Part shown: in pieces, positions 57,415-64,000 of the stretch
Numbering within the stretch: the first letter of the stretch is position 1
Layout: every line of letters starts with the position of its first letter
NCBI GenBank assembly: GCA_030149525.1
Contig: JASBRJ010000363.1
Span: 1 to 64,000, forward strand
Direction: 5' to 3'
Length of the DNA stretch: 64,000 bases
Source of the DNA: a bacterium
Lineage (GTDB): Bacteria; Vulcanimicrobiota; Xenobia; Xenobiales; JADMJV01
The notes under the pieces: generated by a model
Told to the model about the DNA's origin: nothing
Databases searched by the model: none
Seen by the model: only the letters and a program-made list of their open reading frames with translations
Translations under genes and position numbers: made by a program

Positions 57415-57453
57415 ATGACCCGAAACCCTCGGCCTTGGAGGTTCCATTCATGA
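57415..57453 (+). CDS. 12-codon upstream ORF (MTRNPRPWRFHS)
   Basis: AGGAGG (57401-57406) lies eight bases before ATG 57415, an ideal Shine-Dalgarno setting. The frame reads 12 codons to TGA 57451-57453, which overlaps the ATG (57450) of the fusion gene as ATGA. It is out of frame with the fusion gene. The peptide is rich in Arg, Pro and aromatic residues and has no Lys. It probably couples or controls translation of the fusion gene. A sensing role is only a guess. Confidence 0.55.
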   Translation: MTRNPRPWRFHS

Positions 57454-60400
57454 GTGCCAAAGTGCCGTTAGCCCCTATCGTTGAAGAGATCGCGAATCGG
57501 ATGGGGTTTTTTGACTTCGAACAAGAGGGGCCCAACGCACCTCTGGAAATTACAGCCGCAGCCGTTGCCGGTCTACGTTTCTTCGGAGAAAAATTGAAGC
57601 TCGACGACCTGGCCGAGCACCTTCCCGTGGAGTATGCCGAAGACGTCTCCTCGGTCATTTTTCCGCAAGTCATCAAGCTTTCAGAAGTTCCCAATTGGCG
57701 GCGCACGACACGGGAGTTCTTCAGAATCCTGTCGGAAGAAAATCCGCGAGCCCTGGGGCGGTGGGAACTCTCCAACTGGGACAAGCCTCGCACCCCTGAA
57801 AGCGGACTCGACGACCTACCTCTCTCCAAATCTTTCCTCGACCGTTCCTACAAGGGCGAGTTTATCGTCCGCGAAAAGAAGCCCATGGTCGCCGACTACA
57901 GGCGGAGTCGCCGCAATTATCTGGCCTCCGTGGATCAGGATGGAAGCGTTCCGGCCGTTCTCCTCATGGATGCCTCCTCGCAGATAGCGTCCCATCTCCT
58001 GGGGTTTAACGGCGCAGCCCTGCGCGGCGTGCTGGCTCACCCCGAGAGCTTCCAGAACCTAGACTACCGAATTCATGATGTCCCCGCAGAACAGGCGCTC
58101 AGAGCGAAGCTGCTCCGTTGGTCGCCTCCTGGAATTGAACATGTGGCCTGGTGCAACTCGGGGACCGAGTCGTGGGAGAAAGCGGTCCACCTGGCTCATT
58201 TGAAGTTTCCTGACAAAGGACCCAAGTGTGTCTGTTTCAAGGGAAGCTTCCATGGGCGCACCTTAATATCGCTCTTCTCTTCCTGGAATCCGGTCAAGCG
58301 CGAGCCGTTCCAACTCAAAGGCTACGAGACGCTTTGGGCGGAGTTTCCGGAAGACAAAGAACCTCATATTGAAAAGAGTGCCGATTCTGCATGGCTTGCC
58401 CACTGGGAAGGTGCCGGCAACGACGATTTTGCTCCCCCCGAGGTGGATGCTCAGGAGGACCCACTCCTGGCCGAAGAGGTGGCCTCGCTTATCGAGGTGA
58501 GGAATCATATTCTCACGGGGGAGGTCAGTTCTGTCTCGGTGGAGCCGCTCCAATGTGAGGGAGGAGACCGGTTCGCCACCAATCGATTCTTTCAAACCTT
58601 GAGAGTGATGACTCGGGCTATGGGAGTAGCACTCATTTTTGATGAGGTTCAAACCGGTTTCGGCTTGGGCGGATACGAACTGTGGAGTCAATCCTTCGAC
58701 CTGAAGACCAGCGAAGGAGAGCCTTTGGGGGCTGATTTCATCAACCTGGCCAAGAAATGCCAGGTGGGCGCGGTGCTCAGTTCCGTGGAGGACCCTTATC
58801 CCACGTCGGCCCACGCCGCATCTTTCTATCGCGGCTACGTCAATGCCAGCATGGTGGATGCGCCTCGGCTGAAGGAGTTGGGTGACAAGGTGAGAGAGCG
58901 GCTTTTCGAGCTAGCCGCCGAGTACGCCTACGTCACTCACCCAAGAGCCCAGGGACTGGCCTTCGCTTTTGATATGCCCGATCAAAAGCACGCACTCAAT
59001 TTCGTGGACCAACGGTTCTATCACGGTTTCATGGTCTACATCGCCGGAGAACGAACTCTTCGGTTCAGGATTCAGCACACCACCTCCGACCAGGACCTGG
59101 ATCATATTTTCACCGCGATCCACGAGTCTCTCAGACACATTCGAGCCAACGGGGTGGAGCAGTTGCCGCAAAAGTACGACTACGTTTGGCCCGACGTAGC
59201 CGCTCCTCCGCACCCTGTTCCCATGAGCGTTGGTGAGTTGAGAACGGTCAACTGGGACGTCCTGCTCAGGGCCTTCGGAGAGCTTTCCGGTCGACGTCGT
59301 CAGGAGATGTCGAAACTTCTGGAGCCCAAGCCACTGGAGCAGTATGAGGCTCACTACCGGGAACGGAAGTTCACCTGGCTTGAGTTCTTGCGATATCTGG
59401 CAGGTCGTCAATCGGTTCGCATTCGGCCTCTTCACGCCGGCAACTGGCAGAAGTATAAAGACTCCATCATGGAGCTCGAAGATATGGTCTACGAGCCGGG
59501 CCGCAGAGATTCAGAGGAGTTTTTGCAAGCAGCGGTCGAGGCCGACAAGAGTCTCTCCTTTGTCGCTTTTGAACGCGATAAACTCGTGGGGTTCTCTATC
59601 GCCGCGCCTCTGCGACAATTCCCTGACGTGAAAGGTCCCGATCAAGATCCGGAACTCAAGAGCGGGAACTATCTCTATTCCGCCGATGTCCTGGTTCACC
59701 CCGAGGCCCGGGGTCGTGGTATCGGGCTTCGGCTCAAAAGACGACAGGCTCAACGGGCTCAAGAGCTGGGCTTTTTAGGGATTCGAAGCCGCAATAAAGT
59801 CGGAATGAAAGGTTCCATGAAGAGGGTCAATCTATCTTTGGGCGGTGTGGAGATCGGCTATTTTCCTGGAGATTACTCAGACGGCTCCGATTGTCGGTAT
59901 CTGAACCTTCCCCTCAAGGATGAGGTTCGCCCGCAGTTGAGTTGGTCGTCTGCTATTGAGAATCCCACGGGAGGATTGCTTCCCAGGGATGCCTGGGCCG
60001 ACTGGGATTTGGCAGCCATCAACAAGAACAGTCTCTGCAACTGGTGGACGCCCAATATGACTCGATATGTTGAGTGGCTAAGAGCGCTCTCGCCTCTCGG
60101 CCATGTCTTTCTTGCTTCAGGGAGAGACGAGGCGGTGGACAAGTTGGTGAAGTGTCTCATCCACCATCGAAAAGGCGCCTCCAAGATGGTAAGCTTCGAG
60201 GGCTCTTTCTGGGGAGGCGTCACAGCCTGTGCCCGGTCCTTGTCCGATGAACGGTTCGGCAAGTATTTTGACTGGGCTCATGTGGCCTATCCCTTTCAAG
60301 AGGGCGATCCTTTTAAGGGCCTGGACGAGCCGCTGACCGACCGGGAGATTGATTCTCTGGATCAGTTGAGCGAACTTCTGGTGGAACCGGAGTCCATTCT

Positions 60401-60959
60401 GGGCATCGCCATCGAGCCCATTCAAGAGAAGACCGGGCGACGTGTTTCCATCCGGTTTCTCCAGGCGCTCAGAACCCTTTGCGACGACACCGGCATCCCG
60501 CTGGTTATGAACGAGTCGGCCAGTTGGGCCTACCGGGGAAGTCGAGAACTGTTCTATTGTCAGGCCACCGGCGTGAAGCCTGACCTGCTCACCGCTTTTG
60601 CCGGAGGGCAACTTGGCCATGTCTTTTGCAACGACAAATATTTTATCCCGAAACCCCTCACCCTGATCTCCACCTGGGACGGCGATGAACTCTCCGCTCT
60701 CAGATTTCGTGAGCAGATGCATGTTCTTCGCGCTCATCGAGACGATCCCAGGCTTTATGAACTGGATAAGATGATCGGGCCTCGAGGCGATACCTATCGA
60801 GGGAGTGGTCTTCTCTATTTCGACGGCGAAGATCTTCGCTGCTCCGAAGACCTCATCGGTGATGGACACATTTTCTGGCCTGCACTCAATCGTTTAGACG
60901 AGGCTTGGGACATTCTTGAGCAGCTTTTCAGCCCTCAACCCCAGCCTGCAGGCGTGTAA
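57450..60959 (+). CDS. Fused class III aminotransferase - GNAT acetyltransferase - pseudo-aminotransferase
   Basis: The 1169-residue protein starts at ATG 57450; TTG 57435 is in frame but its bases (TTGGAGG) act as the Shine-Dalgarno site for 57450. Domain 1 (~90-560) is a class III PLP aminotransferase: NSGTESWEKAVHLAH (~233), KGSFHGRTL, FDEVQTGFGLGG (~397), and the PLP lysine in FINLAKKCQVG (~434). The K-K-x-Q-V-G form resembles lysine 6- and GABA-type transaminases. Domain 2 (~655-830) is a GNAT fold with acetyl-CoA loop VHPEARGRGIGLRLKRRQ (~748). Domain 3 (~865-1165) is a second class III fold with LASGRDEAVDKL, SFEGSFWGGVTAC and PLVMNESASWAYRG. Its PLP aspartate is changed to Asn and the lysine loop reads PDLLTAFAGGQLG, so it is probably inactive. 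It resembles a fusion of Bacillus YodT and YodP. Confidence 0.82.
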   Translation: MSAKVPLAPIVEEIANRMGFFDFEQEGPNAPLEITAAAVAGLRFFGEKLKLDDLAEHLPVEYAEDVSSVIFPQVIKLSEVPNWRRTTREFFRILSEENPRALGRWELSNWDKPRTPESGLDDLPLSKSFLDRSYKGEFIVREKKPMVADYRRSRRNYLASVDQDGSVPAVLLMDASSQIASHLLGFNGAALRGVLAHPESFQNLDYRIHDVPAEQALRAKLLRWSPPGIEHVAWCNSGTESWEKAVHLAHLKFPDKGPKCVCFKGSFHGRTLISLFSSWNPVKREPFQLKGYETLWAEFPEDKEPHIEKSADSAWLAHWEGAGNDDFAPPEVDAQEDPLLAEEVASLIEVRNHILTGEVSSVSVEPLQCEGGDRFATNRFFQTLRVMTRAMGVALIFDEVQTGFGLGGYELWSQSFDLKTSEGEPLGADFINLAKKCQVGAVLSSVEDPYPTSAHAASFYRGYVNASMVDAPRLKELGDKVRERLFELAAEYAYVTHPRAQGLAFAFDMPDQKHALNFVDQRFYHGFMVYIAGERTLRFRIQHTTSDQDLDHIFTAIHESLRHIRANGVEQLPQKYDYVWPDVAAPPHPVPMSVGELRTVNWDVLLRAFGELSGRRRQEMSKLLEPKPLEQYEAHYRERKFTWLEFLRYLAGRQSVRIRPLHAGNWQKYKDSIMELEDMVYEPGRRDSEEFLQAAVEADKSLSFVAFERDKLVGFSIAAPLRQFPDVKGPDQDPELKSGNYLYSADVLVHPEARGRGIGLRLKRRQAQRAQELGFLGIRSRNKVGMKGSMKRVNLSLGGVEIGYFPGDYSDGSDCRYLNLPLKDEVRPQLSWSSAIENPTGGLLPRDAWADWDLAAINKNSLCNWWTPNMTRYVEWLRALSPLGHVFLASGRDEAVDKLVKCLIHHRKGASKMVSFEGSFWGGVTACARSLSDERFGKYFDWAHVAYPFQEGDPFKGLDEPLTDREIDSLDQLSELLVEPESILGIAIEPIQEKTGRRVSIRFLQALRTLCDDTGIPLVMNESASWAYRGSRELFYCQATGVKPDLLTAFAGGQLGHVFCNDKYFIPKPLTLISTWDGDELSALRFREQMHVLRAHRDDPRLYELDKMIGPRGDTYRGSGLLYFDGEDLRCSEDLIGDGHIFWPALNRLDEAWDILEQLFSPQPQPAGV

Positions 60960-60970
60960 AGGAGTCAAAG

Positions 60971-62470
60971 ATGATGACAAAGACCTCATTTCGAGGTGTC
61001 TATATAGATGGGAAATGGGAGGCGATAGACGCCCACGACGGCAGCTTCCATACGGAAAACCCCTTCTCCGGCGAGCAAGTCTTGGAGGTTCATCCTGCAG
61101 GTGTCTCTCATGTGGAAAGCGCCGTGGATGCCGCCCACGCCGCCTATCTCAAATGGCGTGCCCTCTCTCACCAGCAACGCGCCGAGTACCTGCTTCGTCT
61201 GAAAGAGGCTCTCAGTGAACGCAAGCAGGATCTCGCCCTGGCGATCACTTGTGAGATGGGTAAACTTTATTCAGAAGCTTTGGTGGAAGCGAGTGCCTGT
61301 GTGGGCAAAATCGACGTCACCCTGGGTGAGGCTGCAGATCGAGTGGCCGATGTGCATCCGGCCGGCCTCGAGGGTGGATTTTACACCTATCGGCCCCATG
61401 GTGTCATGGCGGTCATCGGACCCTACAATTTCCCCATCCATCTGGCCAACGGACACATCATCGCCGCGCTGATGATGGGGAACACGGTCGCCTTTAAACC
61501 GAGTTCCGTGACCCCTCTGGTGGCTCAGATCTACACGGAGTGTGTCGACAAGGCCGGTTTCCCTCCGGGAGTCTTCAACTTGCTCCCCATGACTCGTCAG
61601 GCCGGAGATCGCCTGGTGACCCATCCTCTGGTTCGCGGGATTCTGTTCACGGGCTCCTGGGCCGTAGGTCTACATTTCAAGCGATTGACCCTGGAAGACC
61701 CTCACAAGATATTGGCCCTGGAGATGGGCGGCAAGAACGCGGTTGTCGTGGCCGACGATGCCCACCTTGACCAGGTTGTGGCGGAGGTTGTCACGGGGGC
61801 TTTTCTTACCACCGGTCAACGTTGTACCGGCACTTCCAGAGTCATCTGCACTCCCAAATATATGGACCGACTCACGGAGAGGCTGGCCCTGGCGGCTGAA
61901 GCGCTCAAAAGCGGCGACCCCATGGCAGATGGAGTTTTTATGGGGCCGCTGGCTTCACGAAGCGCTCTTCGCACCTATCGCAGAGATGTGGAGGCAGCCG
62001 ATCAGGACGCCGATCTTGAGACGCTCGTTGGATTTCGGGAAGGAGAAGGCGTCTGCGGCGTGGGTGCCAGCCTCCATCGGGTGGTGAACTATCGACCCGA
62101 TCATCCTTACCTACGGGAAGAAGTCTTCGGCCCGGCGGTCACTATCGAAGGCGTTGCCGATCTTGATGAGGCGTTCCAGCGAGCCACCGAGACGGATTAC
62201 GGACTCTCCTTCTCCATTTTCTCCCAGTCGGAGGAGGTCTTCCGGAGGGCCATGATCGAGGTCCCGTCGGGGATCGTCAACTGGAACCGCGCTACCAACG
62301 GCGCCTCCGGTCGTCTACCGTTCGGCGGAGTCGGTAAATCGGGAAATCATCGACCCGCCGCCCTGTTCGCTCCCGAGTATTGTTCTTATCCTGTGGCTTC
62401 GCTCTCTAAGCCCTTCGGGGAATATAGTGAGAACCCCAGTCCCGGATTTCCCCAGGAGGTATGGAAATGA
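60971..62470 (+). CDS. Aldehyde dehydrogenase, succinylglutamate-semialdehyde dehydrogenase (AstD)-like
   Basis: The 499-residue NAD(P)-dependent aldehyde dehydrogenase has GVMAVIGPYNFPIHLANGHIIAALMMGNTVAFKPSS, FTGSWAVGLHFK, catalytic Glu in LALEMGGKNAVVV (~251) and Cys in GQRCTGTSR (~285), and the C-terminal GIVNWNRATNGASGRLPFGGVGKSGNHRPAALFAPEYC. The N-G-H-I-x-A-A-L and N-H-R-P-A-A segments are typical of AstD. In this operon it more likely oxidises an amino-acid-derived semialdehyde in lysine breakdown, for example succinate semialdehyde. The ATG is 11 bases after the fusion gene, with GGAG; the stop overlaps the CoA-transferase ATG (ATGA). Confidence 0.88.
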   Translation: MMTKTSFRGVYIDGKWEAIDAHDGSFHTENPFSGEQVLEVHPAGVSHVESAVDAAHAAYLKWRALSHQQRAEYLLRLKEALSERKQDLALAITCEMGKLYSEALVEASACVGKIDVTLGEAADRVADVHPAGLEGGFYTYRPHGVMAVIGPYNFPIHLANGHIIAALMMGNTVAFKPSSVTPLVAQIYTECVDKAGFPPGVFNLLPMTRQAGDRLVTHPLVRGILFTGSWAVGLHFKRLTLEDPHKILALEMGGKNAVVVADDAHLDQVVAEVVTGAFLTTGQRCTGTSRVICTPKYMDRLTERLALAAEALKSGDPMADGVFMGPLASRSALRTYRRDVEAADQDADLETLVGFREGEGVCGVGASLHRVVNYRPDHPYLREEVFGPAVTIEGVADLDEAFQRATETDYGLSFSIFSQSEEVFRRAMIEVPSGIVNWNRATNGASGRLPFGGVGKSGNHRPAALFAPEYCSYPVASLSKPFGEYSENPSPGFPQEVWK

Positions 62471-63861
62471 GTAAAGTTTATCAGTCGGCAAAAGACGCCC
62501 TGGCCGATGTCAAGGACGGTTCCCGAATCATGTTCGGTGGATTCGGTTTGTGCGGCATCCCTGAGAATATGATCGAGGAGTTGGCCCGCAAAGGAACCAA
62601 AGACATCACCGTCATTTCCAACAACTGTGGCAATGCCGGTCGAGGCCTGGCCAAGCTCCTCAAGACCCGCCAGGTGAGCAAAGCCTATTGCTCCTATGTG
62701 GGCGGGAATCCGGATCTGGAAGCTCAGATACTTTCCGGAGAGGTGAAGGTCGAACTCAATCCCCAGGGCACTCTCGTGGAGAGAATCCGAGCCAAAGGCA
62801 GTGGTCTGGGCGGTTTCCTCACTCCCACCGGCGTGGGAACCCCCATCGCAGAAGGCAAGCCCACCTTCGAGCAGGATGGACGAACCTTTATCCTAGAAAC
62901 GGCTCTGGGAGCCGATTATGCCATGATTCGTGCTCTCAAAGGTGATACCGAAGGGAACCTTATCTTTAACAAGTCGGCCAGAAACTTCTCTCCTCTCATG
63001 GCCATGGCCGCCGACTGCACTATCGCCGAGGTGGAGGAATTGGTGGAACCGGGTGAGATCGGCCCGGATGAGATCCATCTTCCCGGAATTTTTGTGCAGC
63101 GGATCTTTCAGGGGGCCAAGTTCGACAACCCCATCGAGAAACGAACCACTCGTTCCAACGAAAAACAGGAGTTGGGGGAGATCGGTCCCACCGACGGACC
63201 GCTGACTCGGCGACAGATCGCCTGGCGAGCTTCCAGAGAGTTACCGGACAACGGCTATGTCAACCTGGGTATCGGTGTCCCTACTCTGGTGGCCGATTAC
63301 CTGGAACCCGAGCGTGGAATTCGTCTCCATTCGGAGAACGGCGTTCTCGGTGTGGGGCCTTATCCCACCGATGAGCAGGTGGATTACTATCTGATCAACG
63401 CCGGCAAAGAGACCATAACGCTGAATCCGGGTGGGTCCACCTTTGATTCTTCCACCTCGTTTGCTATGATTCGCGGCGGTCACCTGGATTGGGCCATTCT
63501 TGGCGCGCTCCAAGTGAGCCAGAAGGGAGACCTGGCTAACTGGATGATTCCGGGTAAGAAGGTCAACGGAATGGGTGGAGCCATGGATCTTGCGGCAGGG
63601 GCTCGCAACACTATGATTCTGACCACTCATACCGACAAGAAGGGCAACCCAAAGTTGGTGGACGATTGTGAGTTCCCCCTCACAGCCCAAGGCACCGTCA
63701 ATCGGGTCATCACGGATCTTGCGGTGATTTCGATTGATGACGATGGCTTTAAGGTGGAAGAGATGATCGCCGGGATTACGCGGGACGAACTTCAGGCCAA
63801 GACAGGTGCCAAGCTCAGATTCTCCGAGAATCTCAAAGTGCTGGAAGTCCCGGCGGTTTAG
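62467..63861 (+). CDS. Fused 3-oxoacid (acetoacetate/butyrate-type) CoA-transferase, A and B subunits in one chain
   Basis: The 464-residue protein starts at ATG 62467 (seven bases after AGGAGG; ATG 62461 is too close). The A half (~1-225) has MFGGFGLCGIPENMIEEL and LTPTGVGTPIAEGK. The B half (~235-464) has NLGIGVPTLVADYL and the catalytic Glu289 in LHSENGVLGVGPYP, and MDLAAGARNTMILTTHTDKKG. This is the order of eukaryotic SCOT and of AtoD-AtoA. It moves CoA from succinyl-CoA or acetyl-CoA to an acyl acid. In the lysine route of this operon it would activate a 3-keto acid, as Bacillus YodR/YodS are thought to do. The ATG overlaps the ALDH stop. Confidence 0.9.
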   Translation: MSKVYQSAKDALADVKDGSRIMFGGFGLCGIPENMIEELARKGTKDITVISNNCGNAGRGLAKLLKTRQVSKAYCSYVGGNPDLEAQILSGEVKVELNPQGTLVERIRAKGSGLGGFLTPTGVGTPIAEGKPTFEQDGRTFILETALGADYAMIRALKGDTEGNLIFNKSARNFSPLMAMAADCTIAEVEELVEPGEIGPDEIHLPGIFVQRIFQGAKFDNPIEKRTTRSNEKQELGEIGPTDGPLTRRQIAWRASRELPDNGYVNLGIGVPTLVADYLEPERGIRLHSENGVLGVGPYPTDEQVDYYLINAGKETITLNPGGSTFDSSTSFAMIRGGHLDWAILGALQVSQKGDLANWMIPGKKVNGMGGAMDLAAGARNTMILTTHTDKKGNPKLVDDCEFPLTAQGTVNRVITDLAVISIDDDGFKVEEMIAGITRDELQAKTGAKLRFSENLKVLEVPAV

Positions 63862-63870
63862 GACTCACTC

Positions 63871-64000
63871 TTGAAAGAACTAAGACTAGAGCGAGGTCTC
63901 TCTGCAGCCCAAAGAGGCGAAGTCCACGGGGAAACTTTCGCCCGGGATATCCAAGAACTCTCGAACATTCGAAAGGACTTGATCCAGAAAGCCTGGGGAC
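63871..64000 (+). CDS. 5' end of a possible C45-type acyltransferase/amidohydrolase (partial)
   Basis: A TTG at 63871 opens a frame to the window edge (43 residues seen). The start KELRLERGLSAAQRGEVHGETFARDIQELS resembles the N-terminus of C45-family (penicillin acyltransferase-like) proteins, where a Gly-Ser-Pro...R-G-x-x-H-G-E segment precedes the autocatalytic Cys. That match is short and could mislead. The nine-base gap after the CoA-transferase stop suggests the same operon. If right, it could take the place of YodQ as the deacetylase for acetylated intermediates (inference). Confidence 0.35.
   Translation, partial: MKELRLERGLSAAQRGEVHGETFARDIQELSNIRKDLIQKAWG

Follow-up and report, generated by a model that had tools for sequence, protein, structure and literature searches.

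A bacterial protein joining an intact and a degenerate class III aminotransferase fold through an acyltransferase, and its likely role in lysine catabolism

Degenerate partners are known among enzymes that depend on pyridoxal 5'-phosphate (PLP). The single-chain P-protein of glycine decarboxylase (GcvP/GLDC), a fold-type I PLP enzyme, pairs an active half with its degenerate homologue within one chain, and in serine palmitoyltransferase (SPTLC1/SPTLC2) a dead partner devoid of the catalytic lysine supports the active one. The present report concerns a gene in a 64,000-nucleotide stretch of bacterial DNA (contig JASBRJ010000363.1, positions 1 to 64,000), henceforth referred to as the window, that encodes a GNAT acyltransferase domain between an intact (AT1) and a degenerate (AT3) class III aminotransferase fold. 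Because glycine decarboxylase and SPTLC1/SPTLC2 precede it, the built-in degenerate PLP partner is a known principle; what sets the present family apart is its class III fold, the acyltransferase placed between its two halves and, often, a leading dehydrogenase. GcvP differs from the window chain in PLP class and reaction, and its halves are adjacent with no GNAT between them and with the dead half first rather than last, while SPTLC1 and SPTLC2 are separate chains of the alpha-oxoamine synthase family. The class III chain with its pseudo-partner is a previously undescribed family: literature searches, which covered few subscription journals, returned no account of a class III built-in degenerate partner. 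They also returned no three-part enzyme of this kind, in line with the first-pass annotation of the window, which knew of none.

Two catabolic systems offer the closest comparison for the surrounding genes. The Bacillus yod/kamA set (YodT, YodP, YodQ, YodR/S and KamA) comprises an aminotransferase, an acetyltransferase, a hydrolase, a coenzyme A (CoA) transferase and a lysine 2,3-aminomutase. The window cluster resembles it in enzyme set, but the yod proteins are separate, the hydrolase belongs to another family and the aminomutase lies inside the cluster; yod/kamA is also not known to include an aldehyde dehydrogenase (ALDH) or pseudo-aminotransferase, both of which the window cluster contains. 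The arginine succinyltransferase (AST) pathway (AstA, AstC, AstD, AstE) has a similar logic, in which a substrate is acylated, transaminated at the omega amine, oxidised as the semialdehyde and deacylated. The AST proteins are likewise separate, however, the pathway starts with succinylarginine, and AstE stands where the window has a C45 hydrolase.

The best match to AT1 by both sequence and fold is the lysine epsilon-aminotransferase (LAT) of M. tuberculosis (Rv3290c; TIGR03251), which is also the top fold match of the chain's predicted structure. In LAT, Ser329 and Thr330 come from the opposite subunit, with Thr330 on the PLP phosphate (PMC9780415), and T297 of the E. coli 4-aminobutyrate (GABA) aminotransferase has the same role from its partner subunit (PMC9309667). 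Unlike the window chain, LAT is a homodimer that carries its cis (own-subunit) and trans (partner-donated) residues in one chain without a GNAT or pseudo-domain, and the window chain scores far under the cut-off of TIGR03251 (128.8 vs 520.8 bits).

Partition of active-site residues between the two folds

The gene is a single open frame in which residue n starts at 57450+3(n-1). The sequence GGAGG at 57437-57441 precedes the ATG start at 57450, and a TTG at 57435 is a possible other start. Pfam matched Aminotran_3 (PF00202) in three stretches of the chain (2.3e-51, 175.2 bits against a cut-off of 30.5) and Acetyltransf_1 (GNAT, PF00583) with 1.8e-7 (31.9 bits against 20.7), and residues 339-561 and 838-1095 each aligned separately to M. 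tuberculosis LAT by phmmer. The open frame, Pfam and phmmer thus bear out the first-pass description of one 1169-residue chain consisting of an aminotransferase, a GNAT acyltransferase and a second class III fold. Feature coordinates are listed in Table 1.

A search for this domain order turned up over 100 homologues arranged as AT1-GNAT-AT3, chiefly in Myxococcota and Bacteriovoracia. A motif-steered query yielded 80 loci in these two groups and 77 matching open frames longer than 900 residues, nearly all AT1-GNAT-AT3 and of roughly 30-38% identity. By profile search, the chain was identified in some 30 of 237 Myxococcota genomes and in 34 of the 192 from Bdellovibrionota, so that the family is present in more than 60 of the approximately 430 genomes sampled from the two phyla. 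The motif-found and profile-found sets overlap partly.

AT1 retains the whole cis set, namely E365, E370, D398, Q401, K435, R270 and R538 in the numbering of the window chain (P0001), with D398 in the motif IFDEVQTG and K435 in NLAKKCQVG; both residues are invariant except in one decayed member, which lacks the lysine. Equivalents of LAT K300, D271, Q274, E238, E243, F167, R170 and R422 are found in AT1, whereas the equivalents of Ser329/Thr330 sit in AT3. The second fold, as the first reading had noted, has Asn at the position of the PLP-binding Asp (N1021) and lacks the lysine; the residue in its place is Ala (A1051). Homologues with both residues intact in this domain, which would speak against a degenerate partner, were sought, and AT3 had neither Asp nor Lys in any of 108 aligned rows or of 30 profile-retrieved Bdellovibrionota sequences. 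T1075 of AT3 (STWDGD) is near-invariant; at the corresponding slot of AT1, most members have A, V, L, M, I or F and few have Thr.

The two patterns occur together. In 102 of the 108 rows, AT1 has D398 and K435 and no Thr at position 459, and AT3 has T1075 and no Asp or Lys; the other six comprise three with Thr in both folds, two with a truncated AT3 and the decayed member (locus L179 of genome G369), in which the AT1 lysine and the AT3 threonine are both gone. Since ISTWDGDE was one of the search motifs, its invariance in the motif-found set is biased, and the count was therefore repeated on the profile-retrieved sets. Thr was present in AT3 in 27 of 30 Myxococcota sequences (two of the others are truncated and one is decayed) and in 30 of 30 Bdellovibrionota sequences, and in AT1 in 0/30 and 4/30, respectively. 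The trans threonine is kept in all standalone relatives compared and in a two-domain AT-GNAT protein (L182). The distance from lysine slot to threonine slot is 24 residues in both folds of the window chain. The HMMER alignment to LAT is poor in the AT1 trans-Thr loop, and a joint alignment with standalone enzymes was used as a check; the register of this loop varies between alignments, none of which gives the window chain a Thr there. The trans phosphate-binding threonine is thus absent from the fold that carries the catalytic lysine in the window chain and in nearly all members.

This partition, in which AT3 retains the trans threonine that AT1 has lost and AT1 the cis residues that AT3 has lost, supports the view that the two folds complement each other in a single active site. 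Such a distribution would be expected if AT1 and AT3 paired to form one working site. The first-pass suggestion that the dead domain may serve AT1 as a built-in dimer partner gains support here from a test that goes beyond those the annotation itself had put forward. AlphaFold2 modelling of the full chain with 74 family rows gave a predicted local distance difference test score (pLDDT) of 84.4 and a predicted template modelling score (pTM) of 0.88 over three domains; independently placed domains would be expected to give a pTM much below this value.

Table 1 Features of the AT1-GNAT-AT3 gene and its neighbours. Residue numbers refer to the window chain.
Feature	Position	Strand	Basis or conservation
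AT1-GNAT-AT3 gene, 1169 aa + stop	57450..60959	+	single open frame
N-terminal helical region, residues 1-110	57450..57779	+	predicted with low confidence, mostly pLDDT <55
AT1, residues 115-570, LAT-like class III aminotransferase, predicted catalytic	57792..59159	+	Pfam, phmmer, fold match
AT1 D398, partner of PLP pyridine nitrogen by homology	58641..58643	+	77/77; 30/30 in profile-retrieved Myxococcota
AT1 K435, Schiff-base lysine by homology	58752..58754	+	77/77; 29/30 in profile-retrieved Myxococcota
AT1 F459, class III slot of partner-donated Thr, lost/unconstrained in family	58824..58826	+	family alignments
GNAT acyltransferase domain, residues ~655-825	59412..59924	+	PF00583
AT3, residues 842-1160, degenerate class III fold without PLP-Asp and Lys	59973..60929	+	phmmer and alignments
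AT3 N1021, PLP-Asp position	60510..60512	+	N/V/S and others in family, never Asp
AT3 A1051, Lys position	60600..60602	+	never Lys in family
AT3 S1074-E1080 (STWDGDE), T1075 putative trans PLP-phosphate Thr	60669..60689	+	27/30 and 30/30 in profile-retrieved sets
AstD-like ALDH, separate gene here	60971..62470	+	profile match; N-terminal fusion in many Myxococcota homologues
3-oxoacid/3-oxoadipate-type CoA transferase, subunits A and B fused	62461..63861	+	TIGR02429 and TIGR02428 above cut-off
Start of C45 autoproteolytic acyl hydrolase gene	63862..64000	+	runs on to contig position 64917
Second class III aminotransferase, beyond window, after C45 gene	contig 64908-66197		

The N-terminal residues 1-110 fall outside every Pfam match.

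The gene cluster and a candidate route

The genes of the window cluster are separated by short gaps or overlap, and the ALDH, CoA transferase, C45 hydrolase and second aminotransferase recur beside homologues. AstD-type models rank first for the ALDH, but the equivalog cut-off of TIGR03240 is missed (393.2 vs 579.3 bits). In many Myxococcota, the ALDH forms the N-terminal part of the protein itself, giving an ALDH-AT1-GNAT-AT3 chain of 1400-1900 residues. The extra 500-600 N-terminal residues of these long homologues had been provisionally taken for KamA; this assignment was rejected, as their sequence is that of an ALDH. In Bacteriovoracia (L102, L107, L121-L125, L129-L132, L135, L138, L139 and others), a gene of ~330 codons for a D-Ala-D-Ala-ligase-like ATP-grasp protein lies upstream of the cluster, as does a threonyl-tRNA synthetase gene at most of these loci; both names rest on reading of the sequences.

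A distinctive long lysine 2,3-aminomutase was found in 28 of 30 carriers of the family compared to 57 of 207 non-carriers in the sample (Fisher p 2.8e-12, phylogeny ignored), and in the two carriers without it the family gene is fragmented. The aminomutase keeps residues equivalent to D293, D330 and K337 of the solved enzyme 2a5h, of which D293 and D330 bind the amine of the lysine side chain. It scores below the TIGR03820 equivalog cut-off (184.8 vs 525.4 bits), and no match to the KamA of the window's genome was found within 10 kb of homologues. Because carriers almost always have a lysine-type aminomutase and the cluster is conserved, we infer that the cluster would serve beta-lysine breakdown.

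Taken as a whole, the chain is probably, in our moderately confident judgement, a multifunctional enzyme that breaks down (beta-)lysine in acyl-protected form and whose two homologous folds share one aminotransferase site. The architecture, residue partition, cluster and aminomutase co-occurrence are read from sequence, and from them we infer the pairing, stoichiometry, substrates and order of steps. AT1 would supply all the residues that a class III enzyme uses within its own subunit, while AT3 would lend S1074 and T1075 to the PLP phosphate, a contribution normally made by the opposite subunit. The AT1-AT3 pair would stand in for the homodimer, and one PLP per chain is therefore expected. 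In the proposed sequence of reactions, the GNAT domain would acylate one amine of a diamino acid, N3 in the preferred order, and the LAT-like AT1 would remove the other, most likely terminal, amine to give a semialdehyde. The fused or adjacent AstD-like ALDH would oxidise the semialdehyde, the C45 hydrolase would take off the acyl group, the second aminotransferase would turn the beta-amino acid into a 3-oxoacid, which for beta-lysine as substrate would be 3-oxoadipate, and the CoA transferase would activate this product. Three features favour protection of N3: the fusion of the ALDH to AT1-GNAT, the similarity of AT1 to LAT and that of the ALDH to AstD. A more specific proposal, made tentatively and with less than even confidence, is that the ALDH-AT1-GNAT-AT3 chains are single-chain machines that acylate, deaminate and oxidise beta-lysine in place, on a so far undescribed route via 3-aminoadipate to 3-oxoadipate, with the aminotransferase site split between paralogous folds.

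Several observations weigh against a shared site in a beta-lysine enzyme. The pTM of 0.88 reflects just confident placement of the domains. The few Bacteriovoracia members that retain the AT1 threonine could form an AT1-AT1 dimer, and further residues of AT3 are invariant (E894, D897, K898, Q1054, D1077 and E1080), which may mean that it has an additional role. Among NCBIfam matches up to E 5, the GNAT region had none to a curated beta-lysine acetyltransferase model (AblB/YodP). The aminomutase of the window's genome lies on another contig (C251) than the cluster (C39), and the comparison of carriers and non-carriers takes no account of phylogeny.

The strongest alternative, though one we regard as unlikely, retains the built-in pseudo-dimer and assigns it to a yod-like pathway. 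The GNAT domain would then acetylate N6 of beta-lysine and AT1 would remove the C3 amine, after which the CoA transferase and a thiolase would cut the 3-oxoacid, the C45 hydrolase would free 4-aminobutyrate, and the last steps would fall to the second aminotransferase as GABA transaminase and to the ALDH as succinate semialdehyde dehydrogenase. Each gene has a single counterpart in yod/kamA plus gabT/gabD, and the homologue clusters and the aminomutase co-occurrence fit as well. However, such a pathway would call on the ALDH only at its far end, yet many Myxococcota have this enzyme fused to AT1-GNAT, and one locus (L183) has it joined to just the GNAT. Furthermore, AT1 is LAT-like with the LAT substrate residues kept, which fits a terminal amine better, and the closest relative of the ALDH is AstD, an enzyme of N-acyl amino acid semialdehydes.

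It is considerably less probable that AT3 is a regulatory or ligand-binding pseudoenzyme with no part in the AT1 site, AT1 pairing instead with AT1 of another chain. The invariant residues of AT3 and the AT1 threonine in four of the 30 profile-retrieved Bdellovibrionota sequences are consistent with this role, which nevertheless gives no reason why the trans threonine should be present in AT3, lost from AT1, and kept in standalone relatives and in the AT-GNAT protein. Equally improbable is an AST-type route for ornithine or arginine, with the GNAT domain acting on the alpha amine, AT1 on the omega amine and the ALDH yielding an N-acyl dicarboxylic amino acid. Such a route accords with the AstD-like ALDH and with the kinship of AT1 to succinylornithine and acetylornithine transaminases, but two enzymes of the cluster, the 3-oxoacid CoA transferase and the second aminotransferase, would be superfluous in it, and the aminomutase co-occurrence would go unexplained. 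An assembly or frameshift artefact fusing three genes, which the first-pass annotation had named as a danger and which a draft genome of 398 contigs with 4.5% contamination might suggest, has a negligible probability and is refuted by the same domain order in more than 100 homologues, including those of Nannocystis and Plesiocystis isolates.

Distribution, descent and related loci

The chain was not found in 148 other genomes of the window's phylum, which gave ordinary aminotransferases only, and a plasmid search for it returned only generic aminotransferases. A neighbouring gene on the contig occurs in family and order relatives of the source genome, so the contig fits its lineage. Since the contig fits yet the chain is absent from those 148 genomes, the three-domain gene was probably acquired. 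In the joint alignment with standalone enzymes, the AT1 domains form one clade and the AT3 domains another, with broadly matching branching; the AT1-GNAT-AT3 fusion therefore probably arose once, judging from these trees, and was then inherited whole.

Class III enzymes are among the most used industrial transaminases, and no account of a built-in degenerate partner in this class was found in the literature searched. In this family a homodimer would have become an obligate pair within one chain, its two half-sites having decayed in opposite directions, and the origin of pseudoenzyme partners would thereby be open to study in a clean natural experiment. The family further draws attention to an entire catabolic cluster, probably for lysine, in predatory and social bacteria, which standard annotation sees as unrelated generic genes.

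Several related loci depart from the common architecture. L182 (780-3302, + strand) encodes the two-domain AT-GNAT protein without AT3, which keeps the trans threonine in the motif NTTWEGD and is possibly an ancestor-like form. L183 (2233-4290, - strand) encodes a 685-residue ALDH-GNAT fusion without aminotransferase domains whose two parts are related to the corresponding domains of the long members. In L180 (1957-4950, - strand) and L181 (1512-5006, + strand), the GNAT domain is recognisable and AT1 lacks the lysine and PLP motifs; the former adjoins a CoA transferase and the latter a class III aminotransferase, and the two possibly represent families with two dead aminotransferase folds. 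Finally, three Myxococcota loci (L196, L197 and L199) contain adjacent pairs of class III aminotransferase genes, one with an NTWLGD-type and the other with a QTRNGD-type trans loop, whose products may form heterodimers.

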